Shown here: in pieces, positions 3,430-27,358 of the stretch
Position numbering within the stretch: the stretch's first letter is position 1
Layout of the letters: each line of letters begins with the position of its first letter
NCBI RefSeq assembly: GCF_000003605.2
Contig: NW_003156746.1
Coordinates: 9,344 to 38,181, forward strand
Origin: Saccoglossus kowalevskii
Lineage: Eukaryota; Hemichordata; Enteropneusta; Harrimaniidae
DNA: 28,838 bases
Reading direction: 5' to 3'
Position numbers and translations under genes: made by a program
The notes under the pieces: model-generated
What the model was told of the DNA's origin: nothing
What the model saw: only the letters and a program-made list of their open reading frames with translations
Database searches by the model: none

Positions 3430-3543
3430 ATGTTTCGCAGTTAGTCCCCTCGTAACCAGATCGGCAGACGCATATTTCTTTCTCGCCAGAGATCACACAT
3501 ACTCCGCCATTCTGGCAGGGTCCGGGCCTACATAATGTCATTT
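3430..3543 (-). CDS. EGF-like domain 42 (last exon recognised)
   Basis: This is a phase 1-1 exon of 38 codons: CRPGPCQNGGVC, EICVC and YEGTNC, ending E-T. It starts M-T-L-C, with no Asp before the first Cys. The donor GTGAGT is close to consensus, so the transcript continues to at least one more exon, which should start with two bases completing a T-initial codon. No such exon was recognised between 1 and 3429, so the C-terminus is unknown. Confidence 0.9.
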
Positions 3544-3800
3544 CTGAAATGTACAATCGTGGCGTTTAATAATATGACAGAGACCACTCATCCGTTATCT
3601 TGATAAGTTTATAAAAAAAAAACGTCTAGTAATATAATATTACAAGCACTTGAGGCCTAACTCTCTGTGAATTCGTATGTGCTTTAGGAACGAGTACATT
3701 TTCAAATTGTAGATTACAAACTTTTTGTGTCATTCAGTGTTACATAGTGTAATCGTCGGGCCTGTCAAATATAGAATCTTATTCACTCATTTCAACTAAC

Positions 3801-3914
3801 CTATTTCACAGTGTTCACCGGTATACCCATCAGGACATACACACACTTCGCCGCCACTGGTTCGCCTGCAATCTCCGTTTATGCATGGTCCATTGTCAAC
3901 ACACCAACCGGAAT
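3801..3914 (-). CDS. EGF-like domain 41
   Basis: This is a phase 1-1 exon of 38 codons: CVDNGPCINGDC, EVCVC and YTGEHC, ending E-I. The first loop has five residues and the second four, the reverse of the usual balance. Val replaces the aromatic before the fourth Cys. The donor is GTTAGT. All six Cys are present. Confidence 0.9.
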
Positions 3915-3968
3915 CTAGACATAGAAATCAGAGGTCACCATAGTTTGTAGTAAATAATGTTATATTAG

Positions 3969-4379
3969 TATAATCAGAGGTACATTACTTGGGGTTTGCA
4001 ACTCGCATAGTACTGTATGGTGACATCATGTCAAGATCCCATTCAAGTCTCTTCTCGTTGATAGCAAGACTGAGGCTACGACCTTCTGACATGACATATA
4101 TCAATGTTCAAGGTTTGTAATGAAAAAATAAAACTTTTCTTGCCACTATCATAGTGAAAAAAGGAATACATCAAAATGTACTGAAAATATAGTTCTCGTA
4201 ATCCGTTATAACGTGGGCAGCTATTTTGATCCACCTGGACATCCCAGTATCCTAGTTACCTTGGGCACGCGCATTTGCATTTTTCTGAGTTGGAACGCTT
4301 ATGCGAGAGCGAGATTGTGACGGGATCTTGGTATCATGTCACCGTAGTTGCAAACCCCAAGTAATGTACCTCTGGTATA
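3969..4379. mobile_element. Non-autonomous element with long terminal inverted repeats
   Basis: The left end (TATAATCAGAGGTACATTAC, then TTGGGGTTTGCAACT) is matched by the right end in reverse complement (GTAATGTACCTCTGGTATA, preceded by AGTTGCAAACCCCAA). Similarity continues inward over about 70-80 bases with indels (GGTGACAT, AAGATCCC). It is about 411 bases long and sits in the intron between EGF41 and EGF40. No coding capacity is visible. It was probably mobilised by a transposase encoded elsewhere. Confidence 0.75.
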
Positions 4380-4590
4380 ACATACTATACAATATAAAGC
4401 GCATATATAAATGCACTCTTGAAATTCATGACATCAATGCGTGTACTTATTCCAGGCTCTCTCATATATATAACATTTTGATGCAATTGGTTTCTTCATT
4501 GATATATTTAAATTCGTGGATATGGTGTGTGCCTAAAAACATTCATTTATTAATTCATTCAATTACAATAATATTAAAATATATACTTAC

Positions 4591-4725
4591 CAATCTCACA
4601 GTTGACACCGTAGAAGCCAGACAGACATGTGCAAACATACCCGAGGGTATTCAGGTCGTTCATGAAACACACTCCACCATTCTCACAAACATCGTTCAAT
4701 GAGTCTGGACAATTAGCCGTAATCT
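4591..4725 (-). CDS. EGF-like domain 40 (longest exon of the array)
   Basis: This is a phase 1-1 exon of 45 codons: CPDSLNDVCENGGVC, YVCTC and FYGVNC, ending E-I. Seven residues separate the first two Cys (four is usual here), and the third loop is also long. Two nearby AG acceptors exist; only the one at 4726-4727 keeps the frame, the other reading into a stop. No O-fucose site. The donor is GTAAGT. Confidence 0.9.
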
Positions 4726-4889
4726 CTGTAGAACCAATGATTTAATTTCAAAAAAACAAAATGTACTATTTTGAAAGTGGTCGAGTGATACTACCTACTT
4801 CCCTGAACAAATTTCGAAACAAGTCTTTCAAATATGAGTGAAATATTGAAGAAAATGATACAGATATATGTGAAAAAAAACGTGCTTAC

Positions 4890-5009
4890 CGTCTTCACAG
4901 TTCGGTCCTTGGAATCCGTCCGAACACGAACATAGGTAGCCACTACCTTGGTTTGCTGTATTAACACACTGCCCGTTATTTAGACACGGAGTGCTGCCAC
5001 AGGGGTTTG
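4890..5009 (-). CDS. EGF-like domain 39
   Basis: This is a phase 1-1 exon of 40 codons: NPCGSTPCLNNGQC, YLCSC and FQGPNC, ending E-D. The middle loop VNTANQGSG is long. The O-glucose consensus (C-G-S-T-P-C) is present; no O-fucose site. The donor is GTAAGC. Confidence 0.92.
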
Positions 5010-5182
5010 CTAGAAAAACATTAAGAATTGGTAAGAAAGACACCGCGATGAAATATATAAATCAGCCACCTTAAACATCGCCGAGTAAACACTGGTAATA
5101 ACTCATTCATGATATTGCCAGTTTACCACTAATCTTTGTTTCAGTTGGGGGAAAATACACTAAAGTTATGGTATGGTATTAC

Positions 5183-5296
5183 CTGTTTGACAATGATCCC
5201 CGGTCCATAGAGCAGTGCACGTACAGAAGTACCCAGCCGTAAGCGCGGAACACTGTCCGGCGTTCAAACAAGGGTTGGAATCGCATGGATCCACTC
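5183..5296 (-). CDS. EGF-like domain 38
   Basis: This is a phase 1-1 exon of 38 codons: DPCDSNPCLNAGQC, YFCTC and WTGDHC, ending Q-T. It starts V-D-P-C and carries the O-glucose consensus. Gln replaces the O-fucose Thr. The donor is GTAATA. Confidence 0.92.
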
Positions 5297-5583
5297 CTAT
5301 AAGAACATTGAAATATTGGTTAGTTGATATAACATTCTGCAATTGTCTTTCAAATATGTTAAGTAGGAATTATGCGCTAACAAAAACGGTAAGCATTTTA
5401 GTTCCTGCAAAAAAACACTGAGCAGAAACAGTGCTGCAATATTAAATGCAAGTTAGTATAGTAATGAAAACGGGTTAGTACATTTTAGAAAATCCCGGAC
5501 GCTCCTACATCGTCAGGACAACACGGCGATAATCAGTGAACAACCACTGTTAAAATTACAAGAATGAACGTGGTTGTTCTTAC

Positions 5584-5697
5584 TTTCGTCACAAAAAGTA
5601 CCGGTGAATTGATCTGGACAGTTGCATATGGGGGAGTTGTCTTGGCCGACACTGCATACGCCGCCGTTCTGGCATGGGTTCACTGCACATTCGCCTC
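5584..5697 (-). CDS. EGF-like domain 37
   Basis: This is a phase 1-1 exon of 38 codons: CAVNPCQNGGVC, then PICNC and FTGTFC, ending D-E. The residue before the fourth Cys is Ile rather than an aromatic. No O-glucose or O-fucose consensus. The donor is GTAAGA. The upstream intron (944 bases) is AT-rich. Confidence 0.92.
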
Positions 5698-6641
5698 CTA
5701 TGTACGATACATAAATTACAGAGCATTGCTTCTCAAAATTGTGGCGCTGTTTTCAAATAACGTGTGAAACTAAGAGTGCATGTCTGAGTTATCAATACTA
5801 AAATAAAGTTACACATTATTTAGAAATCACCATTTACCAAATGGTAATGTCTAGCTCTACCTCTTGTATTACAGAATGTTTGAGATCTATACATTATTAT
5901 CATACTGTAACTAAAGGAAGTGCTTAGAATTTAGATTGTGTAAATCAGGTTTAAGTACAATTGTCAGATATAGTGCATAGAGCATGTTTTCAATTTAAAC
6001 AATACTTAAGGTAGACCCCTACTCATAAATTAAAATATTCAAAATTTATTCATTTTGCAATTAACTGTACTCCAAGACAAAATAATTATATTGGCCTAAA
6101 ACAAGTTGTGGATCACCAGCCTTTTTCGAGAAATTGATAGTTGTATTTTAGTGGGAAGTTGCCACTTTGACACTATTATAACACTTTTACCACAGATTCC
6201 TATGGCAGAGATTTTATGCAATATCAAAAAATCTACCCTTGTGACATAGGCTGAAAAAATCATATATTGTTAATGATGGGGTACTTTTTGTTTTTCTGAA
6301 TTATTTAAAAAATCTGGGGTTTAAAAAGTGTCAAAAATTGCAATTTTTCTTAATATTGTTCTAAAATGCCAATTTTCAAGAAATATTAGGACACGTTTCT
6401 CAAAAAGCTTAACTGTAATAATGCGATTTCATTGTACCGTAGGACATTAGCTTCATGATTGCACATAATAAAATAATGAACATTGTCATGGATTTATGAC
6501 CAATGTTTGTCAAATATTACAACTAGGCTTCTACCTTAAGAATTGCAATTTACATGGAATACATTTTATTCTATATTTCGTGTATTGCAGGCGCAAAGTG
6601 GTGTTAATATTAATTCTGAGACCGCCATTTAATAGGCATAC
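5698..6641. other. Intron between EGF36 and EGF37
   Basis: This intron is 944 bases of AT-rich DNA. From about 6000 to 6480 there is a stretch beginning AAGGTAGACCCCTACTCATA with many A and T runs that reads like a dispersed repeat, but no second copy is visible in this window. No exon was found. Confidence 0.5.
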
Positions 6642-6755
6642 CATAAACACAGTGGGTCCCACTATATCCAGAAGGACAATCACAACGATATCCGTTAACT
6701 TCGTCAATACACCTCCCACCATTCAAACATGGGTAACTTGAGCACTCGTCGGTAT
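6642..6755 (-). CDS. Calcium-binding EGF domain 36
   Basis: This is a phase 1-1 exon of 38 codons: [27 protein letters not shown] and YSGTHC, ending V-Y. It has the full calcium-binding pattern (D-x-D-E-C and C-x-D-x4-Y-x-C) and the O-glucose consensus, but Arg at the O-fucose position. The donor GTATGC sits inside a reading frame that stays open for about 14 more codons; I placed the junction at the only phase-1 GT close to the end of the domain. Confidence 0.9.
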
Positions 6756-7669
6756 CTAATGTAAAATGGATGACTTATTTGAATGTCGTTTGGAGTTATA
6801 TTGCGATCATTCATACCCACAACACATACTATGACCTTGACATATTTTTTTCTTGAAAACCAAGTTTTTCAAGTTACATGTAGAGCATGTGTATACATCC
6901 AGATTGTTAAATCCTGTGTTGTTGTTTTTTTAGTTATATACTCAACTAAACAACGCATACTGTCACATCGACGTTTGACATTTTGTCCGATGTGTCCGAA
7001 TTTCATCACACACACAAAATTACTTCATCCAACCCCCTAGCTATTAATATATAAATTACAATAAAATATAATACATTTCATTTTTGTTGTCCATGTATAT
7101 TACAGTTTCCAATGTTGTACGTCAATATATATATACATGTTAATCAATCTTGGATTTTGGCAGTTTAGTTAGATGTAACCAATATTTTTTGTTTACAAAA
7201 AAGATGCTCCCTCAGTACTGCTTTATTAGATCAATTGGAATTCATCAATTCTAAAAAAAATGTTTCTCTTCTTGCTTATATTTACGAAACCGTGGATTTC
7301 AGTATTTTGTAGAAGAATTGAATAAATTATCAAAGAGTTAATAAACATCAACTTAATATACCCAACTTAAAATTGAAATTTGTTCTAGAAAACTTGATAA
7401 TTACAAACTGCTTTTCAACCAAGATATATTTACCATATCCTATGCAAAACACAATAATGTGGGAATTGCGCCAGGTTAAATTTTTTTTACAGAAATAATC
7501 TCTTGATACAGCTCTATTCAGGCCCTATTAGTGAGTTTTTTTAATAATTGATATTGCGATATTGGTTATATATGTTAATACTTTGTAGAAACGGAGTTTT
7601 AATAGGTCTTGCAACAACTTATTGTGTTTTACATTACAATTACCACTTCCAGGGTCGCAATTAACCTAC
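6756..7669. other. Intron between EGF35 and EGF36
   Basis: This intron is 914 bases, strongly AT-rich, with several homopolymer runs. No EGF exon, relic or inverted-repeat element was recognised. Confidence 0.5.
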
Positions 7670-7783
7670 CAATTGCACAAGTTGAACCGCTGTATCCATC
7701 CTGACAAACGCACTGGAATTCATTGACGCCATCGTTGCACGTACCACCGTGCAAACACGGGGAACTTGCACATTCGTTGATAT
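7670..7783 (-). CDS. Calcium-binding EGF domain 35 (near-copy of EGF34)
   Basis: This is a phase 1-1 exon of 38 codons: [27 protein letters not shown] and YSGSTC. It carries the full calcium-binding pattern. It is 111/114 identical to EGF34, yet beyond about ten bases next to the acceptor the flanking introns do not visibly align. The donor is GTAGGT where EGF34 has GTAAGT. Very recent exon duplication or gene conversion is the likely cause. Confidence 0.94.
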
Positions 7784-8170
7784 CTGTATCATGCAAAAGA
7801 GGTAAATGGTTTATACGTTCTACCTGCCGTTTTTGTGGAATGCTTTGATGGATTTTGCATAATCTTCAATCGTAGATGACAGATCTGCCATAATTCTGCT
7901 GGTGTGCATTTGTTAAAATATATGTTTTGTCTTTTTGAGAAATTCCTCAGTTGATCGAAATTATGGAATAAAAAAAATAATTAAATTAATGTTTGAAATA
8001 TAAACTTGAATATTTTACTAGGCATTTTAGAACACGTATATACCAGCGGTCAGAAACAGGAATATTCGTTTTAATAATTGTTATGCAAATACTCGTGTAA
8101 CCTGAATAAGTAATAAAATATACATAGAAAACAAAGTCGTGTTACGTTAATTTTTTCAACATTTACTTAC
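7784..8170. other. Intron between near-identical exons EGF34 and EGF35
   Basis: This intron is 387 bases. Only the first ten or so bases beside each acceptor (CTGTATCATG on the plus strand) match between the two flanking introns. The rest does not visibly align, in contrast with the nearly identical exons. Confidence 0.6.
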
Positions 8171-8284
8171 CAATTGCACACGTTGTACCGCTGTATCCAT
8201 CCTGACAAACGCACTGGAATTCATTGACGCCATCGTTGCACGTGCCACCGTGCAAACACGGGGAACTTGCACATTCGTTGATAT
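8171..8284 (-). CDS. Calcium-binding EGF domain 34
   Basis: This is a phase 1-1 exon of 38 codons starting D-I-N-E-C (Asp at the junction), then [22 protein letters not shown] and YSGTTC. D-x-N-E-C together with C-x-D-x4-F-x-C is the full calcium-binding EGF pattern, which stiffens tandem repeats. O-glucose and O-fucose consensus are both present. Against EGF35 it differs at 3 of 114 bases with one amino-acid change (Thr for Ser near the sixth Cys). The donor is GTAAGT. Confidence 0.94.
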
Positions 8285-8700
8285 CTGTATCATGGCAAAT
8301 GGGGATAAGGGTTGGTAGAATATAATTTCAATAAACAGTTAAATCAGGAAACGTAGGCAAGATATAATAAACAAGTTTACAATATGTAAACAAAGAATAA
8401 TAAATAGTTATTTGAGACCGATAATTCCTACCAGAAGTAAAAATTGGTGGCACTATAAAACAACATTATAATATCATGATTTATATTTCGGCTTAATGGT
8501 GGTTGACATGACATCTACTGATAAAGGTTAAATGGTGAGGCCAGATGACAGGACTGGTTGAGATCAGTCGACACGTTCTCATGAGCTTGCGATTTCAAGC
8601 TTATGCGGTACCTTGGTCGTAGTCCAGAACTAATGATGTATATTAATGTCAACTGTGGAATGTTATTGCAAGACTATTAGCACCCATAAAAATAAACTAA

Positions 8701-8880
8701 CGTTGACATTATGATAGTGATTTTCCTAATATAGTGACGATTAATCAATTGTATTATGATGTGTAAAACTTTCGTGTGATTGGCTGTTTGTTTGGAGGCA
8801 AAGCCTCAAAGTCTCTTATACACTATTGTAATTGGCTAATGGTTGACAAGTTAATAAAGTGATTTGAAGCTGTCTCGGGA
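8701..8880 (+). repeat. LTR-like dispersed repeat, copy A
   Basis: This shares an ordered series of words with 14474-14652: CGATTAATCA, GTGTGATTGGCT, AGTCT, then TAATTGG and AATAAAG. Inverted CCAAT boxes followed by an AATAAA-type signal suggest the promoter and polyadenylation part of an LTR or a similar transposon end. It lies in the intron between EGF33 and EGF34. The ends are not defined. Confidence 0.45.
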
Positions 8881-9172
8881 GGAGAGCACGAGTCAGTCGG
8901 AGAATCGAAGGTGACACGAATTGAGCTTATGTGTTTTTTTTGTGAGTCCAACGTGGAGAACAATCGAATCCCGGTTACCTAAGTGAAAGGTTTCGAAACA
9001 TCAAAAACACTTTTCACAATAACGTGAATATATACGATGTTACCTATTTACGGTAACTGCTTACGTGAAAAGACGAGCATGATTTTAATTAGCATAGATA
9101 ACATGTATTAAGCCTTTATGTATTCGCGTTATCAAACCTAAAACCATTAAATATGTATTAAATGCAACTTAC

Positions 9173-9283
9173 CTGTGTCACAATTGGCACCTGTCCATCC
9201 ACTATTACACTGGCAAAGATAACCGGTGCCAACATTACTACACTGTCCATTTACACAGGGATTGTCCGCACAGCCGTTGACGA
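9173..9283 (-). CDS. EGF-like domain 33
   Basis: This is a phase 1-1 exon of 37 codons: CADNPCVNGQC, YLCQC and WTGANC, ending D-T. Only four residues separate the second and third Cys, as in EGF13 and EGF41. No O-fucose site. The donor is GTAAGT. It precedes the calcium-binding trio and supplies the G of the Asp codon that opens EGF34. Confidence 0.92.
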
Positions 9284-9449
9284 CTGAAAAGACAAAATTA
9301 CAACAGTGTGTTGATGTAATAACAATTTATTGCACAATAAAATGCATGGTATATATACTAAGTGGAAGTTGATTCAGTTGCCATGACGTATCTCGGTTAT
9401 GTTTACCAAGTAACGTTGTCCGTGGTTATTCGGACGAATGAGTACATAC

Positions 9450-9563
9450 CTTCTTCGCAATTGTCCCCAGTAAATCCGATCATACATTGGCATGTATAGT
9501 ATGTGTTACCGCTGACACAAGTACCGCTGTTCTCACATGGGCCACTATCACATGGGTCAACGC
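9450..9563 (-). CDS. EGF-like domain 32
   Basis: This is a phase 1-1 exon of 38 codons: DPCDSGPCENSGTC, YTCQC and FTGDNC, ending E-E. It starts V-D-P-C, as does EGF38. O-glucose (C-D-S-G-P-C) and O-fucose consensus are present. The donor is GTATGT. Confidence 0.92.
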
Positions 9564-10040: not shown

Positions 10041-10154
10041 GGAGTTCGCAATATTGACCTCTCCATTCATCAGTGCAATCACACTGAAATCCGCCAGCGA
10101 TATCGATACAGTTACCTCCATTCTGGCAAGGGTTGTTCACACAGAACGTAGTAG
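10041..10154 (-). CDS. EGF-like domain 31
   Basis: This is a phase 1-1 exon of 38 codons: [17 protein letters not shown] and WRGQYC, ending E-L. The third loop C-I-D-x4-F-x-C fits the Asp/aromatic part of the calcium-binding EGF pattern, but the N-terminal acidic ligands are not present, so calcium binding is doubtful. No O-fucose site. The donor is GTAAGT. Confidence 0.92.
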
Positions 10155-10335: not shown

Positions 10336-10449
10336 GTGTATTGCAATCTTTTCCCGCCCATCCACTCGAACAACTACACGTGTAATCGTCGCTAAGATAG
10401 TTCGCGCACGTAGCTCCGTTCTTGCACGGGATGCTGCTGCATGCATTTC
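10336..10449 (-). CDS. EGF-like domain 30
   Basis: This is a phase 1-1 exon of 38 codons: CSSIPCKNGATC, YTCSC and WAGKDC, ending N-T. Trp replaces the usual Tyr/Phe in the last loop, as in EGF31 and EGF33. O-glucose and O-fucose consensus are both present. The donor is GTAAGT. Confidence 0.92.
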
Positions 10450-10636: not shown

Positions 10637-10747
10637 CGGTTTCGCACAGTGTCCCACTGAACGGTGTGACGCAGGCACAGACGAATTTGTCATCCACATT
10701 CACGCATGTAGCCCCGTTCTGGCATGGATTACTGTAACAAGGTGGCG
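10637..10747 (-). CDS. EGF-like domain 29
   Basis: This is a phase 1-1 exon of 37 codons: CYSNPCQNGATC, FVCAC and FSGTLC, ending E-T. The third loop C-V-N-x4-F-x-C matches the second half of the calcium-binding EGF pattern, but the acidic residues before the first Cys are missing (P-P-C). O-glucose and O-fucose consensus are present. The donor is GTAAGC. Confidence 0.92.
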
Positions 10748-10973: not shown

Positions 10974-11093
10974 CGACATCGCACAGGGCTCCCGTGAAGT
11001 AGTCTTTACAAATGCATTGGAAGCCTGGTGACGACGTAACAACAATGCAGTCGCCATTATTTAAACATGGCCGATTACTACATGCATCGTAAC
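10974..11093 (-). CDS. EGF-like domain 28
   Basis: This is a phase 1-1 exon of 40 codons: CSNRPCLNNGDC, FQCIC and FTGALC, ending D-V. The middle loop is IVVTSSPG. Neither the O-glucose (Asn in place of Ser) nor the O-fucose consensus is met. The donor is GTAAGT. Confidence 0.92.
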
Positions 11094-12703: not shown

Positions 12704-12826
12704 TTGTTTCACAATAGTCGCCTATATATCCATTTGCACATAGACATCTCGCAATCAGGTTTCCATTCTCAGACGCAGTGTAACATGTGCCGCCATTTTG
12801 ACATGGGTCGTTGTCACACGGGAAAA
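12704..12826 (-). CDS. EGF-like domain 27
   Basis: This is a phase 1-1 exon of 41 codons: CDNDPCQNGGTC, then a long third loop (YTASENGNLIAR), CLC and YIGDYC, ending E-T. An O-fucose consensus is present. Arg replaces the usual residue before the fourth Cys. The donor is GTAAGT. The intron after it (1610 bases) is the longest in the array. Confidence 0.92.
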
Positions 12827-13458: not shown

Positions 13459-13569
13459 CTAAACTGCATGTTTCACCATAGAAACCGGAGATACAAGAAC
13501 AGAAATATGAACTTCCACTATTGGAGCAAGTTCCATCATTCAAGCATGGTCCACTTGCGCAGTAGTCGA
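13459..13569 (-). CDS. EGF-like domain 26
   Basis: This is a phase 1-1 exon of 37 codons: CASGPCLNDGTC, YFCSC and FYGETC, ending S-L. The middle loop is Ser-rich (SNSGSS). O-glucose (C-A-S-G-P-C) and O-fucose consensus are present. The donor is GTAAGT; the intron to EGF25 is 95 bases. Confidence 0.92.
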
Positions 13570-13664: not shown

Positions 13665-13775
13665 CTAGCTCACATAACGGTCCTCTGAATCCGAGTACAC
13701 ACTGACAGGAAAGCACGTTATTGAGTGAAGTACAAGTAGCTCCGTTAATACAGGGATTGCTCATACATGGGTCAA
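13665..13775 (-). CDS. EGF-like domain 25
   Basis: This is a phase 1-1 exon of 37 codons: DPCMSNPCINGATC, LSCQC and FRGPLC, ending E-L. The V-D-P-C start is shared with several downstream domains. O-glucose and O-fucose consensus are both present. The aromatic residue usual two before the fourth Cys is Leu here. The donor is GTAAGT; the intron to EGF24 is 118 bases. Confidence 0.92.
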
Positions 13776-13893: not shown

Positions 13894-14004
13894 CTATGTC
13901 GCAACGGTCTCCGCTAAATCCAGAAAGACAACTACACAAGTAGGCTCCGTTCGTTGTGAGGGAGCACGTTCCACCGTTATAACAATAACCAGCTGAGCAA
14001 GTAA
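13894..14004 (-). CDS. EGF-like domain 24
   Basis: This is a phase 1-1 exon of 37 codons: CSAGYCYNGGTC, YLCSC and FSGDRC, ending D-I. The Pro normally before the second Cys is Tyr, an unusual first loop, but all six Cys are kept. An O-fucose consensus is present. The donor is GTGAGC. Confidence 0.92.
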   Translation of the reverse strand, partial: LLAQLVIVITVERAPSQRTEPTCVVVFLDLAETVAT

Positions 14005-15329: not shown

Positions 15330-15440
15330 CTCTAGTTTCACAGTAAATGCCAGCATATCCCTCGGGGCAGGTGCACGTGAATCCATTACTACTCACGCTA
15401 CAGGCGCCTCCATTTTGACACGGATTCGATAGACATGGAG
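15330..15440 (-). CDS. EGF-like domain 23
   Basis: This is a phase 1-1 exon of 37 codons: [17 protein letters not shown] and YAGIYC, ending E-T-R. The first loop fits the O-glucose consensus; Ala replaces the O-fucose Thr. The donor is GTGAGA. From here to the C-terminus the P-N-P-C motif is absent. The intron that follows (1325 bases) holds an LTR-like repeat. Confidence 0.92.
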
Positions 15441-15703: not shown

Positions 15704-15811
15704 CCGTATTGCAGGTGGTCCCTATATATCCCACGTTGCACTGGCAGATGAAGTTGCTCCCACTGATCGTACATGTACCGCCATTACTACAAGGATTCGG
15801 TTGACACGGAG
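15704..15811 (-). CDS. EGF-like domain 22
   Basis: This is a phase 1-1 exon of 36 codons: CQPNPCSNGGTC, FICQC and YIGTTC, ending N-T. It is the last domain, going towards the C-terminus, with the C-x-P-N-P-C signature. An O-fucose consensus is present. The donor is GTAAGA. Confidence 0.92.
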
Positions 15812-16345: not shown

Positions 16346-16453
16346 TTTTTTCGCACGTGGTTCCAGAATAGCCTTCGGGACATGCGCAGTTATACATAGT
16401 CCCGTAGATATAACACGTGCCGCCGTTGAGACACGGACTGGGTAAACACGGAG
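16346..16453 (-). CDS. EGF-like domain 21
   Basis: This is a phase 1-1 exon of 36 codons: [17 protein letters not shown] and YSGTTC, ending in E-K. It has P-S-P-C in place of P-N-P-C, and an O-fucose consensus. The donor is GTAAGA, preceded by a run of A (coding Lys). It starts C-T-C-C-G-T-G after the acceptor, as several exons in this half do. Confidence 0.92.
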
Positions 16454-16641: not shown

Positions 16642-16749
16642 TCGGTTCACTGCAGTCCAATCCTGTGTAACCGACAGTACAAAAACACGTGTACCCAGAA
16701 GCGTCCGCGGCACAAGAACCACCGTTCTGGCAGGGATTGGAAGAGCAAC
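16642..16749 (-). CDS. EGF-like domain 20
   Basis: This is a phase 1-1 exon of 36 codons: [17 protein letters not shown] and YTGLDC, ending SEP. Both the O-glucose (C-S-S-N-P-C) and O-fucose (G-G-S-C) consensus are present. The donor is GTAAGA. The plus strand of this exon is also open, which is a shadow of the coding strand. Confidence 0.92.
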
Positions 16750-17028: not shown

Positions 17029-17136
17029 TGGTATCGGTACAGTTGATTCCAAAGTAACCGCCGCTACACATACATAAGTACGAATTAGTTACTAAAAAGC
17101 AAGTACCGCCATTCATGCACGGATTGGTGGAACAAC
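17029..17136 (-). CDS. EGF-like domain 19
   Basis: This is a phase 1-1 exon of 36 codons: CSTNPCMNGGTC, YLCMC and YFGINC, ending T-D-T. An O-fucose consensus is present. The first loop has Thr instead of Ser at the O-glucose position, so that motif is not met. The donor is GTAAGA. Confidence 0.92.
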
Positions 17137-17427: not shown

Positions 17428-17547
17428 TAGATTGGGAGCAATCCAGTCCCCAGTATCCATCGACACATATACATTGATATGTGGACATGTCTGAGCCAAT
17501 GTCGATACATATACCAGCGTTTTGGCAAGGGTCAGAAGAACATGCAG
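17428..17547 (-). CDS. EGF-like domain 18
   Basis: This is a phase 1-1 exon of 40 codons: CSSDPCQNAGIC, YQCIC and YWGLDC. The first loop fits the O-glucose consensus. The loop between the third and fourth Cys is longer than usual (IDIGSDMSTYQ). The donor is GTAAGA and the acceptor has a clear T-rich tract. Confidence 0.92.
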
Positions 17548-18292: not shown

Positions 18293-18400
18293 CTGTTTCG
18301 CATCGTATGCCAACGTACTGACTTTGGCACATACACGAGTATGAGTTTTCAGTTGAGATACAGACACCGCCATTCTCGCACGGATTAGGATCGCAAATTC
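18293..18400 (-). CDS. EGF-like domain 17
   Basis: This is a phase 1-1 exon of 36 codons: [17 protein letters not shown] and YVGIRC, ending E-T. It has the P-N-P-C signature, with Val rather than Thr before the third Cys. The donor GTAGAA is weak. The intron separating it from EGF16 is only 70 bases, the shortest in the gene. Confidence 0.91.
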
Positions 18401-18470: not shown

Positions 18471-18581
18471 TTTGACTAGAACAATCGAATCCAGTGTAGC
18501 CTGGCAGACAAGTACATTGGTAAGTACCCCCCGATGGTGTACAAGTACCGCCGTTGACACACGGGTTAGGCATGCACAGAG
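18471..18581 (-). CDS. EGF-like domain 16
   Basis: This is a phase 1-1 exon of 37 codons: CMPNPCVNGGTC, YQCTC and YTGFDC, ending SSQ. The middle loop is Gly-rich (TPSGGT). P-N-P-C and O-fucose signatures are present. The donor GTAAGA is of the type common in EGF16-22. Confidence 0.92.
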
Positions 18582-18736: not shown

Positions 18737-18844
18737 CTTCGCTACAGAAGTAGCCAGCGTAGCCAGCAGCACAATAACATGTGAAGGACGTGCCGTCTAC
18801 TACACAGATTCCATTATTGAGACAGGGGTTTGGTGCACATAGAG
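18737..18844 (-). CDS. EGF-like domain 15
   Basis: This is a phase 1-1 exon of 36 codons: CAPNPCLNNGIC, FTCYC and YAGYFC, ending C-S-E. The middle loop V-V-D-G-T-S-F parallels L-I-N-G-T-S-F in EGF8 and in the relic exon near 21400. No O-fucose site. The donor is GTATTC. The flanking intron is shared with EGF14 and EGF8. Confidence 0.92.
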
Positions 18845-19067: not shown

Positions 19068-19178
19068 CTTCGCTACAGAGTTCGCCTGCGTACCCAAATA
19101 GACAGGTGCAATCAAAACTGGTCCAACCAGCAAGGGCACATGTCCCGTTATTGAAGCACGGGTTTGGGATGCACGGCG
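19068..19178 (-). CDS. EGF-like domain 14
   Basis: This is a phase 1-1 exon of 37 codons: CIPNPCFNNGTC, FDCTC and YAGELC, ending C-S-E. It is a close paralogue of EGF15 and EGF8; the intron just before its acceptor (19179 up) shares a motif block with theirs. An O-fucose consensus is present. The donor GTATGC resembles the GTAT donors of its two relatives. Confidence 0.92.
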
Positions 19179-19479: not shown

Positions 19480-19584
19480 CTGTTTCACACGTCAGTCCCA
19501 CGTACCCCGTAGGACACACACAGTAGAACGTGTCGAGATTCACATAACACGTGCCTCCATTGCAAGGATTCGGAATGCATGGAC
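19480..19584 (-). CDS. EGF-like domain 13 (short second loop)
   Basis: This phase 1-1 exon of 35 codons is the shortest in the array: CIPNPCNGGTC, FYCVC and YVGLTC. Only four residues separate the second and third Cys (five is usual here), as if one codon before N-G-G had been lost. The change is in frame and all six Cys remain, so the domain should still fold. The altered spacing breaks the O-fucose consensus. The donor is GTAATC. Confidence 0.92.
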
Positions 19585-19815: not shown

Positions 19816-19929
19816 TAAAATTTTCGCAATGGTCTCCAAGGTAACCTTCTGCGCACTCGCATAAATATGTTCCCGTGGGAGTCACGCGGCATGTGCCACC
19901 ATTTTGACAGTTATTTGGAGTACACGGAG
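19816..19929 (-). CDS. EGF-like domain 12
   Basis: This is a phase 1-1 exon of 38 codons: CTPNNCQNGGTC, YLCEC and YLGDHC, ending ENF. The usual Pro before the second Cys is Asn here (P-N-N-C instead of P-N-P-C). An O-fucose consensus is present. The donor is GTAAGT. Confidence 0.92.
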
Positions 19930-20096: not shown

Positions 20097-20204
20097 ATGT
20101 TTGACAGTTTGTGCCAAAGTAGCCAGCCACACACGTGCATCGATAACCATTAAACTCCACAGTGCAGGTTCCCGAATTTTGACATGGGTTTGATGAACAC
20201 GGAG
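20097..20204 (-). CDS. EGF-like domain 11
   Basis: This is a phase 1-1 exon of 36 codons: CSSNPCQNSGTC, YRCTC and YFGTNC. It carries both the O-glucose (C-S-S-N-P-C) and O-fucose (N-S-G-T-C) consensus. The middle loop V-E-F-N-G-Y is short. The donor is GTAAGT and the acceptor is preceded by a run of T. Confidence 0.92.
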
Positions 20205-20279: not shown

Positions 20280-20351
20280 TAATTTTGAGGCACTGAAAGC
20301 TGAAGTTATTATTATTATTATGTTTTGCATATAACGAATATTTGACTGTAC

Positions 20352-20465
20352 CTGTTTCACAATTTGTTCCAATATAACCCGCAGGACAGGAACAGAAGTA
20401 ACCATTAACGCCGCCATTAAAATAACATGTTCCGCCATTATTGCATGGATTTGGACTACAAGGAT
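20352..20465 (-). CDS. EGF-like domain 10
   Basis: This is a phase 1-1 exon of 38 codons: CSPNPCNNGGTC, FCSC and YIGTNC. The middle loop contains FNGGVNG, a Gly/Asn-rich stretch. It has the P-N-P-C and O-fucose signatures. The donor GTACAG is non-ideal but is the only one consistent with phase and with the C-E-T end. Confidence 0.92.
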
Positions 20466-21139: not shown

Positions 21140-21259
21140 TAACGGGCGTCGTTTCACAGAATGTACCCGTGTATCCCTGGACACATATACATTGGAATGT
21201 ACCACCAGCTTGTATCGAGCATGCGCCTCCATTTAGACACGGGTTCGGTTGACACGGGG
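21140..21259 (-). CDS. EGF-like domain 9
   Basis: This is a phase 1-1 exon of 40 codons: CQPNPCLNGGAC, FQCIC and YTGTFC, with a long ETTPV tail after the last Cys. It has P-N-P-C but Ala in place of the O-fucose Thr. The donor GTAAGT is strong. The extended, Thr- and Pro-containing tail makes a slightly longer linker to EGF10. Confidence 0.92.
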
Positions 21260-21337
21260 CTAGAGAGTGGGTAACAGAGACACATCGAAATACATGTTAC
21301 AGAATCATAAAAATGGTGACTGAAATAGATTAGGTAT

Positions 21338-21450: not shown

Positions 21451-21646
21451 TGGACACATAATGAAAATATAAAGATGCATAAAGATGTATCCTTCAATAC
21501 AAATGAAGACAGATGCACAGACACATGATGCAAAGTTTTTCATTTAAATAACAGAAAAGGGTGAACACAGCCCGACAGAAGCGTGATATGAGACAATGAA
21601 AAAAAACAGTTTGAAAATAAAAGACATAGAACGCAAGCAACTATAC

Positions 21647-21757
21647 CTTCGCTGCAAAGTTCGCCTACGTACTCGATAGGACATAGACACTCAAAGCTGG
21701 TCCCATTGATAAGAAAACATGTCCCATTATTGAGGCATGGGTTCGGGGTGCACAACG
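21647..21757 (-). CDS. EGF-like domain 8
   Basis: This is a phase 1-1 exon of 37 codons: CTPNPCLNNGTC, FECLC and YVGELC, with FLINGTSF in the middle loop. It has an O-fucose consensus and a C-S-E end shared with EGF14 and EGF15. About 45 bases of intron before its acceptor (from 21758 up) resemble the matching intron of EGF14 and EGF15, so these exons duplicated together with flanking intron. A dead relative lies just downstream at about 21338-21450. The donor GTATAG is weak. Confidence 0.92.
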
Positions 21758-22032
21758 CTGAAGTGAAGAGTTTTAACAATAATCATGCAGCATGCATTTA
21801 ACAACGAGTGAACAGTGATCTAAAGAGGTGACATACCTAATAACAATATTCAATAGAGTGGAAATAGTAAAGAAGTCATTAAAAATTGCAGTATTTATAG
21901 TATAGCTTGTCGTGCCACTAGGAATGTGATTTGCTTACAGATATTACGTTGTCATGACAGTGCGTTTGCAGTAAAAAGAGCGATGTGTGTACCAGTCCAT
22001 GCCAGATTCAATTGTTGACAGTTTGTACTTAC

Positions 22033-22140
22033 TGGTTTGACAGGTTGTTCCAGAGTAACCGGTTGGGCAACTACATTGGTAGCTCAGTTCCTGTACAGTA
22101 CACGTACCGCCGTACATACAGGGGTTAGGCATACATGGTG
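22033..22140 (-). CDS. EGF-like domain 7
   Basis: This is a phase 1-1 exon of 36 codons: CMPNPCMYGGTC, YQCSC and YSGTTC. It has P-N-P-C and an O-fucose consensus, with Tyr replacing the usual Asn before G-G. The donor is GTAAGT. The upstream intron to EGF6 is short (132 bases). Confidence 0.92.
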
Positions 22141-22272
22141 CTAAAAAATAAAAAGTAAATATTCTCCATTTATAAATCACATACGACTACATCGAGGAAA
22201 GAGTGGATAAACAAACGAACAGATTTAATATGTGCATTTTGTACCACCTTAGCAATTCTAAACCATACCTAC

Positions 22273-22389
22273 CGGTATTGCAAGTATCTCCTACATAACC
22301 TTCTGCACAAAAACACAGGTAATTTTGGTTGTTGTGAGAATTGAAACAAGTTGCCCCGTTCAGACAAGGGTTGCTACTGCACGGGTCGA
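22273..22389 (-). CDS. EGF-like domain 6
   Basis: This is a phase 1-1 exon of 39 codons: DPCSSNPCLNGATC, YLCFC and YVGDTC. The first loop C-S-S-N-P-C fits the O-glucose consensus C-x-S-x-P-C, and N-G-A-T-C fits the O-fucose consensus. The loop between the third and fourth Cys is rich in Asn (HNNQN). The donor is GTAGGT. It is one of the few domains in the first half without P-N-P-C. Confidence 0.92.
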
Positions 22390-23078
22390 CTGTAAACAGA
22401 GAAAATATCGTTAAAGTGAACCGGGGAAGCCTTACAAAGAGATCATCATAATTAGTAGGTCCGAGTGTACAACTTGGTAAGTTTATCTTGAAGAATGGCG
22501 CCGCGAGTTTTAAGCTAACAGCCACATAATGGGGTATCATAGTGGTTGGTATGATAGAAGTGAATTCCCGTAAAAACAGGGGTAAGAAGCTGATCAATAG
22601 AAATTACGGGAGAGATTAAAAAAAATCGTTTCAGCATTTCCCATATTTTCATTGTCATTCTTTCTTAGTGTGGTTACAAAGTTTAGATGAAACCAGATTA
22701 TGTAGGACCATTTTCCAAGTGCGATACAAAAACATAGAACTTCAACGCTTAGTTTACACACTCTGGTTTACAGTCGTTGTCATTTCACCATTTGAAGACA
22801 TCGATATCGTATCGATACAGTGTACGTAGTTATACACACAAATACATACTTCTCTAAAGTAAAATTATTATATGTAAACAACGTTCCAGGATTAATTTCC
22901 AATAGAGACGTCGTACTGATTTCTTCGAGGTTCGTACTAGAACTAGAACATTCCATGCAATTAGTACGTATATAAATCAATGCATTATTAGTAAGCGATG
23001 TATAATAAAGAAAAAAAAACAAGTTAAAAACATATCAATCTTTCTCAGATAAATAACGACCCAAATAAATGAACTCAC
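22390..23078. other. Intron between EGF5 and EGF6
   Basis: This intron is 689 bases. Apart from a short palindrome around 22798-22820 (ATCGATATCGTATCGAT) nothing was recognised. Confidence 0.5.
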
Positions 23079-23189
23079 GGAAAGAGCAAAGTATACCACT
23101 GTAGCCAGGTGGACAATCACAGGAAAAGTAATCATCTGTCGACATGCATATGCCATTGTTGTGACACGGATTGGGGTTACATGGGGTAT
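23079..23189 (-). CDS. EGF-like domain 5
   Basis: This is a phase 1-1 exon of 37 codons: CNPNPCHNNGIC, FSCDC and YSGILC. Junction Asp plus Thr-Pro precede the first Cys. It has the P-N-P-C motif but no O-fucose Thr/Ser. The donor GTGAGT is close to consensus. It is flanked by introns of 987 and 689 bases, among the longer ones in this half of the gene. Confidence 0.92.
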
Positions 23190-23761
23190 CTAGATCGGAA
23201 ACAACTTATCGTTATTCTTCAGATATTCAAGATATGAAAACGTGACCACTGGTTAGGTCAGAGAATTACGGGAGGTGAAATAATTCTGGGTACTCGAGCA
23301 AATAGACCATAGAATGCATATGGCCACCAAGATCTCGTTGAAGCAAAAACGAAAGTCCCAGCGTTCTCACGGCGTTCTCAGCGAGATCTCGGACACGAGC
23401 ACGTTATGGTCTACTGAGGTTCGAATATCCAGCTTCGTTACCAGAGCTTGTAAATGGCAAAAAAAGGTGTATAAAGAGTTTAGTACCTACATGGAAGTGT
23501 TTACGAGTTAACTTCAATGGTTTTAGTACAGTTACGTCAGAGGAGGTAAATTGTGATTTAATTGTGTGCGTTGGAGAGATGTGTTATTCAGAACAATTAT
23601 CAATGCATGGCGTTAAGAAAGGCAAAACCGCAAGTGCATTTATACTTTATACTGTACTGAATAATACCACTCATTAATTATGACCAATCTAGCATTATTT
23701 ATACGATAGTGTGCATTCTTAATTTACAGTTGTGCCTACGCAATACGCCCTACTAAAAAGG

Positions 23762-23972
23762 TACTGTAAAATGACTAATTTTCACTGGGTTTAAATTTCG
23801 CTGATTTACCATTTCAGGCATATTCGGTGGGTTTTAAATTCACGGTTTTATCATTTAGATAATGTGTTCTATGCTAAATTTTACATATTCGCTGGGTTTT
23901 AATTTAGCGCATTTTCCAGTCAGCGAAATAAGCAAAATTAAAACACAGTGAATAATTAATCCCTTTACAGTA
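23762..23972 (-). mobile_element. TA-flanked foldback element, copy 2
   Basis: This 211-base element, inverted relative to copy 1, has ends TACTGTAAAA and CTTTACAGTA and the same internal GGGTTTTAAATT-type blocks. It lies in the intron between EGF4 and EGF5. The strong match suggests relatively recent insertion of a family present elsewhere in the genome. Confidence 0.8.
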
Positions 23973-24175
23973 TGTGATATGAGCACTACGCACAACGTGG
24001 TCGGGTAGTTACGGCCCGCATAACGGCTGTCACTGATATTGGACAAATAGTATATTAGTAAAAAGATGGGGTGCACTGAAAGAAACGAAGGGTGTTCAAT
24101 TAGTACGGTGCTGTCGTGTGTCCTAGAATACGAGAATTGTAAAGTGTTAGGTTTAGCGGTAACGGTGTGCCATAC

Positions 24176-24292
24176 CTAGGCAGGTATCTCCGACGTAACC
24201 GATGTGACATGTGCACTGGAATCCTAGTCCGCTGTGTGTGACGGTACACGTGCCGCCATGGCCGCAAGGGTTCGGTTCGCAGGGATCGTGGA
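24176..24292 (-). CDS. EGF-like domain 4
   Basis: This is a phase 1-1 exon of 39 codons: CEPNPCGHGGTC, FQCTC and YVGDTC. It begins H-D-P-C, carries the C-x-P-N-P-C motif and an O-fucose consensus, and replaces the usual Asn of N-G-G with His. The exon is noticeably richer in G and C than its introns. The donor is GTATGG. The upstream acceptor has a long T run. Confidence 0.92.
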
Positions 24293-24517
24293 CTACAAAA
24301 AAAATCACGTAAGTTAATAGTTATCGAACATTCGCTAGATTATATCACTACGAAAATAGAAGGTTGGCCCGGGTGTTCAGTTGTATCTTTGGATACATAC
24401 ATACAAAGCAGTAATTGTAATACTTGCCACCAAATAAAACTTTGTTATTTATATTTCGTACTGTAAATGTGAATGTCAACAAAGACAATGCATCGTATAG
24501 TAGGAGAGTATATCTAC

Positions 24518-24625
24518 CTGAGCAGGTGGTTCCACCAAAGCCCGGAAAACAGGAACACTGAAACGTATCCCCCAATTGGTAACAAGTGCCACCGTTTTCG
24601 CATGGATTAGGCTGGCAGGCTGTCC
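24518..24625 (-). CDS. EGF-like domain 3
   Basis: This is a phase 1-1 exon of 36 codons encoding [17 protein letters not shown] and FGGTTC, ending almost at the sixth Cys. The second-to-third Cys loop ends in Thr, giving the C-x4-S/T-C consensus for O-fucosylation in EGF domains of secreted proteins. The donor is GTAGAT, weaker than its neighbours. The acceptor is followed by a G-T-A lead-in. Confidence 0.92.
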
Positions 24626-24660
24626 CTGTTGAACAATAACATCACAGAAGTTAGTATTAC

Positions 24661-24825
24661 TTAAAGCGGGAGGGTCGTCACCTGCGCACGCGCGGGAATT
24701 GAGTCTCAGGCGATGATAACAACAAACGTTTAAAACGCAAAGGCTTATGGGCAGACGCTTGTTTATAAACAATGACACGCTATTGTCATCTGACACATGC
24801 GCAGGTGACGACTCCCCTGCTTTAA
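24661..24825 (+). mobile_element. TTAA-flanked foldback element, copy 1
   Basis: This 165-base element is bounded by TTAA at both ends. The left arm AGCGGGAGGGTCGTCACCTG continues CGCACGCGCGG. The right arm is its approximate reverse complement (CGCAGGTGACGACTCCCCTG, then CT). TTAA target duplications are characteristic of piggyBac-type transposition, so this is probably a non-autonomous derivative. It lies in the intron between EGF2 and EGF3. Confidence 0.8.
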
Positions 24826-25028
24826 ATGTTCGCACGAGAGAAAACAATGTAATAGGCGTTGTCAAGGGACTGATGAGTTTCATCCTCGGACAGGACCCCG
24901 TTATCATTGCGCTCTTCAAAAAAACGGCGGAACACGCGTTCTCGTAAAATATCGGGTTTAGTATGCGAATATTGAACTTTGAGTATATCCCTGAAAATGT
25001 TTCAGTTCAATCGAGGCTAATTGAGAGC

Positions 25029-25130
25029 GTGGTAGCTAGACTATATAACTGAAAATTGACGTTGCTAGACTACATCTGGAGAGTGACGTTGCTAGGCTAT
25101 AACTGGAGGGATACGTAGTTTGGCGATAGC
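25029..25130 (+). repeat. Minisatellite of about 27-base units
   Basis: There are three to four diverged units in tandem: GACGTTGCTAGACTACATCT and GACGTTGCTAGGCTATAACT, each continuing GGAG, with a related earlier unit (GGTAGCTAGACTATATAACT) and a decayed final one. It lies in the intron between EGF2 and EGF3, next to the TTAA element. Confidence 0.65.
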
Positions 25131-25243
25131 TCATACAGCCAACCGTGCATACCATAATTTAAATTTGTTCCAAAAGTCACGTAATAAAAAACAAAAGCAC
25201 GCTCGGCCCTGGCGTATAATAGGAGAGAACGTGCGTGACTTAC

Positions 25244-25357
25244 CGACATATGTCCCACAGTTTTGTCCGGTATATCCAATGGGACATCCGCATACATAGG
25301 TACTGTCACGTGCCGTACAGATACCACCATTTAGGCAAGGATTCGGCGTACAGATGG
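25244..25357 (-). CDS. EGF-like domain 2
   Basis: This is a phase 1-1 exon of 38 codons. The Cys pattern is CTPNPCLNGGIC, YVCGC and YTGQNC, followed by a GTYV tail. It has the C-x-P-N-P-C signature of the N-terminal half of the array. No O-fucose site (Ile precedes the third Cys). The donor is GTAAGT. The intron upstream (25358-25860) holds no recognised feature, and the intron downstream carries a TTAA element and a minisatellite. Confidence 0.92.
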
Positions 25358-25860
25358 CTGCGGAGAAATAAACTACACTGTTACAGACGCCAAGCCTTAC
25401 GGCCGGTAATACCCGAGACAATTGAAGTGACAACGCTCCAAGTAGCATATGTCTTGCCTTACGAGTTATCGGGAGTATAATACTCGTGGTATAATATGAG
25501 TCAGGCAACAACCTAAAGCAGCCAAAGAAGGTGGGTTGCCTCGTGTAAACGCAATTGTCGTCGATACGATCGGTGCGTTGTATCAAGTATTGCCTCCTGC
25601 ACAGCAGCCGAGAATGTCATGTACAGTTCTCATGAGGATGAGGTCACGTTTAGTATCAGAACCAAAAACAGGTATTTCCAAATAGACGATGTGTGAGTTT
25701 CGGTATCACGTGACATTTTGAGTAGGTCATTCAATTTAAAAATCGACCTTTAAATATGTGTTGATCACATCATTTTATGGTGGGTAAAAATTTGATTTGA
25801 AATACCGTAAAAAAGTTGCATTCGCATGGCTCACAGACGAGCCTACCATGTGAAACTTAC
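25358..25860. other. Intron between EGF1 and EGF2
   Basis: This intron is 503 bases. It stays open for some length upstream of EGF2 on the minus strand, but no protein pattern or repeat was recognised. Confidence 0.5.
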
Positions 25861-25977
25861 CTGTTGTGCTTGTTTCACAGTTTGCTCCCACCCACGCACT
25901 GTCGCACGTGCACGAATATCCCGAACCGTAGAGATCACACACCCCACCGTTCAGGCACGGATTCGGTGAACAGGGGT
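25861..25977 (-). CDS. EGF-like domain 1
   Basis: This is a phase 1-1 exon of 39 codons with six Cys in EGF spacing: CSPNPCLNGGVC, then YSCTC and WVGANC, with a short ETSTT linker after the last Cys. The Asp formed at the junction with the Reeler exon gives a D-P-C start. It lacks the Thr/Ser needed for the O-fucose consensus before the third Cys. The donor is GTAAGT. The tail is longer than in most of the array, as might suit the first repeat after a different domain. Confidence 0.92.
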
Positions 25978-26041
25978 CTAGAAGAATATAAGTACTACAA
26001 ATCTTAGAATGCGGTAAATAAAAGAATGTCATCTGGTCATT

Positions 26042-26082
26042 GTAATAATAATAATAATAATAATATAATATAATATAAGGAA
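26042..26082 (+). repeat. TAA/TAATA microsatellite
   Basis: About seven TAA units are followed by TATAA-type units, in the intron between the Reeler exon and EGF1. On the minus strand they translate to a spurious poly-Tyr run in the open frame upstream of EGF1. Confidence 0.85.
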
Positions 26083-26698
26083 ATTCGGTTTCTGTTTTCT
26101 GCACACTGTCGTTAATACAAATCGGAGTAACAGTAAAAACCGTGGTAATTTAGAAAAACATCTGTATAACAAGATTTTTTTTATAAAGAAGAAGCAATCG
26201 CTATAAAGAGAAAAAAACGATACGTCAGCCAATGTATCGCCACATAACTTCACGTCTCGACAAGTCCCGTCAGTGCGCCCTCTAAGCCGAAATTATGCGC
26301 CACTGACGCACAGAGATTTGCTGTGATGCAACTCGATGTGCTCCTAATTTATGCTAATTGATCTTAGAACACATTATACTATAGTATTGAATTTTTAATT
26401 TTTTAAAATGAAATTCATATTTTATAAACAAAATAAGTGTAAATACAAAAGAAATCAGAGTCACAACTTTTTTTTTGCTTCAAATCACCTATACCGACCT
26501 TCCCAGCATCAACAAGCCGACTGAACTTGATTTGGGGGAATTACATTTTGATTCACCGAATTCCCACAAAACCAGTCTTGTTAGAGGGCGCACTCTCTGC
26601 ATCCGTTATACGGTGAAAGGAATAAAAACAAAAGAAAGTCATGTCTCAGAAGTACATGCATAACATGGAACCACCCACACATTGTACTCATACTGTAC

Positions 26699-26772
26699 CT
26701 GTCGAGATTGGAGATAATATCGGCGATTTCACGTTCATCCAGAATGACGAGAAACTCTGTGCTACGGTGGCG
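26699..26772 (-). CDS. Reeler domain, exon 2 (C-terminal strand)
   Basis: This 74-base exon runs from phase 2 to phase 1. It completes the Reeler domain: the split Val codon joins to ATVAQSFSSFWMNV, then KSPILSPIST. The A-T-V-x-Q-x-F-x-x-F-W pattern is the usual last segment of a Reeler domain, directly after the G-D-I-E-F of the previous exon. It ends with one base (G) that joins to AC of the next exon to give Asp, starting the D-P-C of EGF1. The acceptor has a clear pyrimidine tract (CTTCTTTCAG) and the donor is GTACAG. The other two frames either carry an early stop or do not match the phase of EGF1. The exon therefore links the Reeler domain to the EGF array. Confidence 0.8.
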
Positions 26773-27138
26773 CTGAAAGAAGAACATACGTGATTAACTT
26801 TCATCCGTCACCTCGCACATGCCGCCTTTAGATAATGACCATTAGATTCTTATTGCTCCGCCAAAGTTTTTTTAGCAGAATTCCACTCAAACATTATTTT
26901 TACATATGTGACATTCCACGTTACTAATATGATAAAAGTAGGGGGTCCACTTTTCAACGTGAGGAAATTGATGCACAAACTGGAGGGTCCTTTGTGTGAA
27001 GGACATCACTAATCGTCACATGCTGTTACCTCCATCACTCCAACCTGCATATTCAATTATTTCTCCTACATACGGTGTGAACCCCATGTGGGGAAATTCG
27101 TAAATAATACATGTATAAGAACACTGGACATGACTTAC
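26773..27138. other. Intron inside the Reeler domain
   Basis: This 366-base intron is in phase 2 and splits the Val codon after G-D-I-E-F. No repeat was recognised. Confidence 0.6.
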
Positions 27139-27358
27139 ACAAACTCAATGTCACCGATTGCTGTATTGGGAGGTAGCCACGTGAGTACTGGGTTCGTTTT
27201 CAAATCGATGGACGAGTGCGTGGCGGAATCGGAAGACGATATACAAGTCACGAATTGTATGTACGGCGACGAGGTGTAAAACCACGTTCCCATCGGTGTA
27301 GTCTGGCCAACTTGGCGGGCTTGGAGAAGCAGGCCGGCAAATGTGCCATCGATTGTCA
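27139..27358 (-). CDS. Reeler domain, exon 1 of 2 seen
   Basis: This 220-base exon runs from phase 1 to phase 2. It encodes about 73 residues including TIDGTFAGLLLQAR, then PMGTWF, a single Cys (FVTC), SATHSSIDLK and LTWLPP, ending GDIEF plus a split Val codon. This order (G-x-F-x-G-LLLQAR, G-T-W/F, Cys, THSS, K, W-x-P-P, G-D-I-x-F) is typical of Reeler domains, which are extracellular beta-sandwich modules. The acceptor follows a short pyrimidine tract at about 27359-27380 and the donor is GTAAGT. The N-terminal third of the domain, which normally carries the partner Cys and a P-x-H motif, is not in this exon and must come from an upstream exon that I could not find. Confidence 0.85.

Follow-up and report, generated by a model that had tools for sequence, protein, structure and literature searches.

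Reeler and EGF exons in the window

The stretch of DNA analysed here, a window of 28,838 nucleotides from the hemichordate Saccoglossus kowalevskii (bases 9344-38181 of contig C4622, which reads N on both flanks), carries exons for part of a Reeler domain and for a long array of EGF domains, and all features of this proposed Reeler-EGF gene lie on the minus strand (Table 1). The domains, their order and strand, the phases and the open frame can be read directly from the DNA. An earlier note on the sequence had claimed that two exons encode the C-terminal two-thirds of a Reeler domain, and this was borne out: the 96 residues spelled by the joined exons R1 and R2 match the Pfam Reeler family (PF02014) with 63.7 bits (cut-off 21; E 3.3e-17) over positions 46-131 of the 131-position model, about two-thirds of the domain. 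Within the complete joined protein the Reeler match has an E value of 5e-15. As a candidate Reeler-domain protein, the product of the window gene exceeds the curated cut-off with profile positions 46-131 only. The motifs FAGLLLQAR, THSS and FSSFW were each found where the note had placed them, and R2 ends in phase 1, the phase that suits EGF1, as it had also stated. No exon for the missing N-terminal third of the Reeler domain was visible in a three-frame translation of 27359-28838 inspected by eye, and a pattern search for a Reeler N-terminal exon in the upstream contig found nothing because the DNA there reads almost entirely N. A phmmer comparison of the partial Reeler domain with the PDB sequences gave no match at E<=10.

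For the EGF cores, a first search pattern retrieved 41 and a slightly looser one 42. Each of the 42 exons is bordered by AG/GT and is in phase 1 at either end. The joined model of 5,138 bases forms a single open frame whose sole stop is the final one. The claim of 42 EGF exons in one unbroken frame is therefore upheld, with 42 Pfam EGF stretches in the joined protein (E 1.2e-239); the Pfam check of the joined translation that had been proposed returned the Reeler domain, these 42 stretches and no other non-EGF domain. Judging by the direct repeats at 7660-7812 and 8161-8313 (153 nt, 92%), the EGF34/EGF35 pair is a recent exon duplication. With Notch-type patterns for the sugar sites and for calcium binding, O-fucose sites are predicted in 23, O-glucose sites in 15 and EOGT-type O-GlcNAc sites in 17 of the 42 modules, and the calcium-binding consensus occurs in three (EGF34-36). 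Since the modules mostly lack calcium sites, the array is probably a flexible chain. Two copies of a possible mobile-element repeat, 86-90% alike in two adjoining blocks, are present at 24655-24825 in the EGF2-EGF3 intron and at 28235-28402 upstream of R1. An Rfam scan of the window at gathering scores gave no matches.

Table 1. Exons assigned to the proposed Reeler-EGF gene, in window coordinates and in order of transcription.
Feature	Position	Strand	Remarks
Reeler exon R1	27139..27358	-	phase 1 in, phase 2 out; Pfam Reeler match
Reeler exon R2	26699..26772	-	phase 2 in, phase 1 out; donor CAG/GTACAG (slash at the splice point); Pfam Reeler match
EGF 1	25861..25977	-	core pattern, AG/GT borders, phase 1-1
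EGF 2	25244..25357	-	core pattern, AG/GT borders, phase 1-1
EGF 3	24518..24625	-	core pattern, AG/GT borders, phase 1-1
EGF 4	24176..24292	-	core pattern, AG/GT borders, phase 1-1
EGF 5	23079..23189	-	core pattern, AG/GT borders, phase 1-1
EGF 6	22273..22389	-	core pattern, AG/GT borders, phase 1-1
EGF 7	22033..22140	-	core pattern, AG/GT borders, phase 1-1
EGF 8	21647..21757	-	core pattern, AG/GT borders, phase 1-1
EGF 9	21140..21259	-	core pattern, AG/GT borders, phase 1-1
EGF 10	20352..20465	-	core pattern, AG/GT borders, phase 1-1
EGF 11	20097..20204	-	core pattern, AG/GT borders, phase 1-1
EGF 12	19816..19929	-	core pattern, AG/GT borders, phase 1-1
EGF 13	19480..19584	-	core pattern, AG/GT borders, phase 1-1
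EGF 14	19068..19178	-	core pattern, AG/GT borders, phase 1-1
EGF 15	18737..18844	-	core pattern, AG/GT borders, phase 1-1
EGF 16	18471..18581	-	core pattern, AG/GT borders, phase 1-1
EGF 17	18293..18400	-	core pattern, AG/GT borders, phase 1-1
EGF 18	17428..17547	-	core pattern, AG/GT borders, phase 1-1
EGF 19	17029..17136	-	core pattern, AG/GT borders, phase 1-1
EGF 20	16642..16749	-	core pattern, AG/GT borders, phase 1-1
EGF 21	16346..16453	-	core pattern, AG/GT borders, phase 1-1
EGF 22	15704..15811	-	core pattern, AG/GT borders, phase 1-1
EGF 23	15330..15440	-	core pattern, AG/GT borders, phase 1-1
EGF 24	13894..14004	-	core pattern, AG/GT borders, phase 1-1
EGF 25	13665..13775	-	core pattern, AG/GT borders, phase 1-1
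EGF 26	13459..13569	-	core pattern, AG/GT borders, phase 1-1
EGF 27	12704..12826	-	core pattern, AG/GT borders, phase 1-1
EGF 28	10974..11093	-	core pattern, AG/GT borders, phase 1-1
EGF 29	10637..10747	-	core pattern, AG/GT borders, phase 1-1
EGF 30	10336..10449	-	core pattern, AG/GT borders, phase 1-1
EGF 31	10041..10154	-	core pattern, AG/GT borders, phase 1-1
EGF 32	9450..9563	-	core pattern, AG/GT borders, phase 1-1
EGF 33	9173..9283	-	core pattern, AG/GT borders, phase 1-1
EGF 34	8171..8284	-	phase 1-1; calcium-binding type; recent duplicate of EGF 35
EGF 35	7670..7783	-	phase 1-1; calcium-binding type; inside 153-nt duplication, 92% identical
EGF 36	6642..6755	-	phase 1-1; calcium-binding type
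EGF 37	5584..5697	-	core pattern, AG/GT borders, phase 1-1
EGF 38	5183..5296	-	core pattern, AG/GT borders, phase 1-1
EGF 39	4890..5009	-	core pattern, AG/GT borders, phase 1-1
EGF 40	4591..4725	-	phase 1-1; longer C1-C2 loop
EGF 41	3801..3914	-	core pattern, AG/GT borders, phase 1-1
EGF 42	3430..3543	-	core pattern, AG/GT borders, phase 1-1
Possible last exon	2556..2641	-	28-residue hydrophobic C-terminus and stop; GPI-signal-like; predicted only

The proposed Reeler-EGF junction and a second locus

We propose that the window holds one minus-strand gene for a Reeler-headed extracellular protein with 42 EGF domains and probably a short hydrophobic C-terminus, a reading of the sequence to which we give a probability of roughly two in three; a single fused Reeler-EGF protein is likely. 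In this proposal, the splice from R2 to EGF1, the exons at either end of the gene, the glycosylphosphatidylinositol (GPI) anchor and the function are inferred. Splice sites were ranked against a reference of 68 EGF exons, i. e. the 42 of the window and 26 of the 28 on a second contig, C4179 (P17 and P28 were left out). By this measure the EGF1 acceptor is ordinary (quantile 0.51). The 721-base intron between R2 and EGF1 contains no ATG exon with a hydropathy of at least 1.8 and a donor score of at least 6, and allowing any phase-1 GT yields six readings of two ATGs with hydropathies of at most 0.96; by these scans, a convincing signal-peptide exon is absent from this intron. A short TAA-type microsatellite lies in the same intron (26043-26075).

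Contig C4179 provides the strongest new evidence for the arrangement of a Reeler domain followed by EGF exons, and it is also the best evidence against a fusion. Here, a signal peptide/Reeler N-terminal exon precedes R1 and R2 with the same intron phases as in the window, and the spliced Reeler domain is complete (profile 1-131, 103.1 bits, E 2.1e-29). It is identical to the window Reeler domain in 43 of the 103 columns of the alignment; these include the first residue of the window domain, whose codon begins with an unread base and which was set to V. This Reeler domain is followed on the same strand by 27 readable phase 1-1 EGF exons (170364 to 150565) and then by a further EGF core at 150391 that breaks off at a block of N. 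The R2 exon of this gene ends in a phase-1 donor of 7.75 bits (quantile 0.38; 0.14% of window positions are as good), and this ordinary strength argues for R2 being spliced onward. We tried to pair the EGF modules of the two arrays one to one and rejected this, as the best matches are scattered at 0.42-0.59 identity, a point against our proposal; the arrays would have expanded separately or been reshuffled.

Several further observations weigh against a fused protein. The R2 donor of the window scores a weak 4.43 bits (7th percentile of the 68 EGF donors; 0.65% of all positions are as good), an ATTAAA is present behind R2 at 26399, and reading through the donor leads to an in-frame stop after a few codons, so that a stand-alone Reeler protein is possible. 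Moreover, four weak signal-peptide-like candidates (hydropathy 1.9-2.2) lie upstream of R2; such candidates often arise by chance, at 0.17-0.56 per kb per strand. On C4179, a convincing signal-peptide-like ATG exon with a hydrophobic stretch and a phase-1 donor (173155-173086) separates the Reeler exons from the EGF exons, the only candidate of its grade on the four strands scanned at thresholds set after it had been seen, and there are three weaker exons of this type; the acceptor of the first EGF exon is weak (quantile 0.01) and R2 read-through again meets an early in-frame stop. Given this inner exon, the weak acceptor and the early stop, C4179 may hold two genes or two promoters. Finally, a GPI-like tail is absent beyond the N block of C4179, where one EGF exon, the 28th listed, and an exon for a transmembrane segment are present instead (140175 on); these may belong to the same gene.

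If there are two genes, a secreted stand-alone Reeler protein would neighbour an EGF-array protein with its own signal exon, and the pair would have been duplicated to give C4179. The in-frame stops shortly past both R2 donors, the inner exon of C4179 and the possible polyadenylation motifs behind R2 (AATAAA at 173824 on C4179, and the ATTAAA of the window) agree with this idea, as do insect immune-induced-like Reeler proteins in an annelid and a sponge, as far as the available parts of the sources go (PMC1939704, PMC6208332). Yet in both genes R2 is closed by a phase-1 donor, which on C4179 is of ordinary strength, the window lacks a convincing signal exon between R2 and EGF1, and at three other Reeler loci the frame stays open past the domain (see below). 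We regard two separate genes as unlikely. The combination of an ordinary R2 donor with a good inner signal-peptide-like exon on C4179 would also suit a gene that makes a long Reeler-EGF form and, from an inner promoter, a short EGF-only form, at least on that contig; no such inner exon exists in the R2-EGF1 intron of the window, and we consider this quite improbable. The earlier statement that the Reeler domain leads directly into the EGF array is thus partly supported, by the phase, the open frame, the lack of a convincing signal exon in the intron and the parallel on C4179, and it is weakened by the R2 donor of the window and by the inner exon of C4179.

The genome (572 Mb) contains at least six Reeler loci, and at two of these six, the window and C4179, same-strand EGF exons follow. 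Near the other four (on C2502, C3623 and C413), no EGF exons were present in the readable DNA that was fetched. At both Reeler domains of C2502 and the one of C3623 the open frame continues for tens of residues past the domain; C413 has a partial Reeler match whose readable flank is devoid of EGF exons. The C2502 genes form a tandem pair, and their second Reeler exon continues into Thr-rich, mucin-like sequence. On C413, tandem KRSDINGNYKK-type open frames (L019 minus strand, about 4.9-6.6 kb) are found a few kb from the partial Reeler domain.

The candidate tail and the proposed protein

GPI attachment signals consist of small residues followed by a hydrophobic stretch directly before the stop. 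The predicted peptide of the possible last exon (2641-2556) matches this rule-based layout, with small residues and a hydrophobic stretch abutting the stop. The phase of the exon fits EGF42, its pyrimidine score is the highest among 29 listed candidates, and its acceptor ranks at quantile 0.72 of the 68 EGF acceptors. With a strong-acceptor threshold chosen after the exon had been seen, GPI-like terminal exons follow 1 of 28 acceptors on the window minus strand, the tail exon itself, and 0 of 113 on the other strand of the window and both C4179 strands. Alternatively, the gene might continue past EGF42 into unread DNA and the exon be a product of chance. Indeed, at looser acceptors chance GPI-like exons arise at 5 of 2,528 sites on the three other strands; further acceptors lie between EGF42 and the exon, and no AATAAA is close behind its stop, the nearest signal being the ATTAAA at 1951. 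For these last two reasons the tail is a prediction. A genome-wide search for the GPI-like tail found no other match, a further point against our proposal. In view of the fitting phase, the pyrimidine score and the acceptor of the exon, we think a continuation into unread DNA rather unlikely. The Reeler and EGF exons are present over the whole extent of 3430 to 27358 given previously; if the tail exon is real, the coding part may reach below 3430.

The single minus-strand gene that we favour would encode a large extracellular protein, presumably a scaffold or receptor, whose length would exceed 1,711 residues. By analogy with the C4179 gene, its signal peptide and the N-terminal third of the Reeler domain would lie upstream of the window. 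The Reeler exons form a phase-1-to-phase-1 cassette, as does each EGF exon, and such cassettes could be shuffled or duplicated in tandem to build up the gene with the frame kept. Most likely, the protein is an elongated, partly flexible rod whose N-terminal head, the Reeler domain, would bind the matrix, a sugar or another Reeler protein. A GPI anchor would tether it at the cell surface, where it may take part in adhesion or act as a scaffold of the apical matrix. If real, the predicted GPI-type tail speaks for a surface protein that is tethered and has no signalling tail. More tentatively, and we regard this as possible rather than probable, a hemichordate lineage may have two related genes for giant Reeler-EGF proteins of the cell surface, one with a GPI anchor and the other transmembrane, a family that arose when a phase 1-1 Reeler cassette was shuffled onto EGF arrays, which afterwards expanded independently.

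Beside these loci, we inspected the mitochondrial contig C4830 (17,037 bases), in which COX1 lies on the strand opposite to most genes and ND2 precedes ND1 (genes other than COX1 and ND1 were named by eye), an order judged unusual; repeated open frames about 190 bases apart occur near 16.2-17.0 kb. COX1 is open only if its seven TGA codons are read through, and in ND1 TGA stands opposite Trp in three of five cases. In the aligned parts of COX1 and ND1, the 20 ATA codons stand opposite mammalian Ile (9), Leu (4), Met (3), Val (2), Ser (1) and His (1), ATG opposite Met in 21 of 24 and AAA opposite Lys in 8 of 9 cases. ATA thus appears to behave like Ile and AAA as Lys, and, given the mitochondrial codes of the phyla, this together with the broadly deuterostome gene order seems to fit a hemichordate best. 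The gene order had also suggested a lancelet, a reading that was rejected on account of the Ile-like ATA codons. A comparison of CYTB with the PDB sequences at 1e-180 gave no match, probably owing to the strict threshold.

Relation to known Reeler and EGF proteins

F-spondin-type proteins combine a Reeler domain with TSP1 repeats and FRRS1-type proteins combine it with DOMON and cytochrome b561 domains. Both resemble the window protein in having the Reeler domain at the N-terminus. Unlike F-spondin, the window protein has no spondin or TSP1 match in Pfam at E<=1, and unlike FRRS1-like proteins it has no DOMON or cytochrome b561 match; reelin repeats were likewise absent from this comparison. 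The insect Reeler defence-type proteins are stand-alone, with a signal peptide and one Reeler domain. R2 read-through would yield just such a protein, similar to these and to their annelid and sponge relatives, whereas R2 of the window ends at a donor and the EGF array then follows in phase. Like Notch and fibropellin-type proteins, the window protein has a long EGF array that carries O-fucose and O-glucose motifs; it differs from them by its Reeler head, the sole non-EGF Pfam domain; among its readable exons there are no Notch LNR/NOD domains or ankyrin repeats. Reelin, as described in the available part of the source, is a large extracellular protein that has an N-terminal Reeler domain, an H region and also eight reelin repeats with one EGF domain apiece, placed between two sub-repeats (PMC4882317). 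The N-terminal Reeler domain, the EGF modules and the large extracellular nature are thus common to both (PMC4882317), whereas the window protein lacks a reelin-repeat match and its EGF exons directly adjoin one another.

According to the accessible parts of the respective papers, Reeler domains are found in immune-related proteins (PMC1939704, PMC6208332), in the shell matrix (PMC9365450) and in a sponge calcarin (PMC12419799), and reeler and EGF-like domains are among those of coral skeleton proteins, with no statement that one protein has both (PMC7853314). A published protein with a Reeler domain and an EGF array was not among the matches listed, judged by titles and the openings of abstracts, and the architecture is not described in the available parts of PMC1939704, PMC6208332, PMC9365450, PMC12419799 and PMC4882317. 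The proposed Reeler-EGF gene is best described as known domains in a new arrangement. If the fusion is true, Reeler heads also ride on very long EGF rods, and a domain of reelin and defence proteins is linked to EGF arrays of Notch-like type that are rich in sugar-site motifs. Two paralogues, possibly one of GPI type and one transmembrane, would then be available for comparison, and the gene would clearly exemplify the shuffling of phase-1 exons, for which a new principle is not needed.

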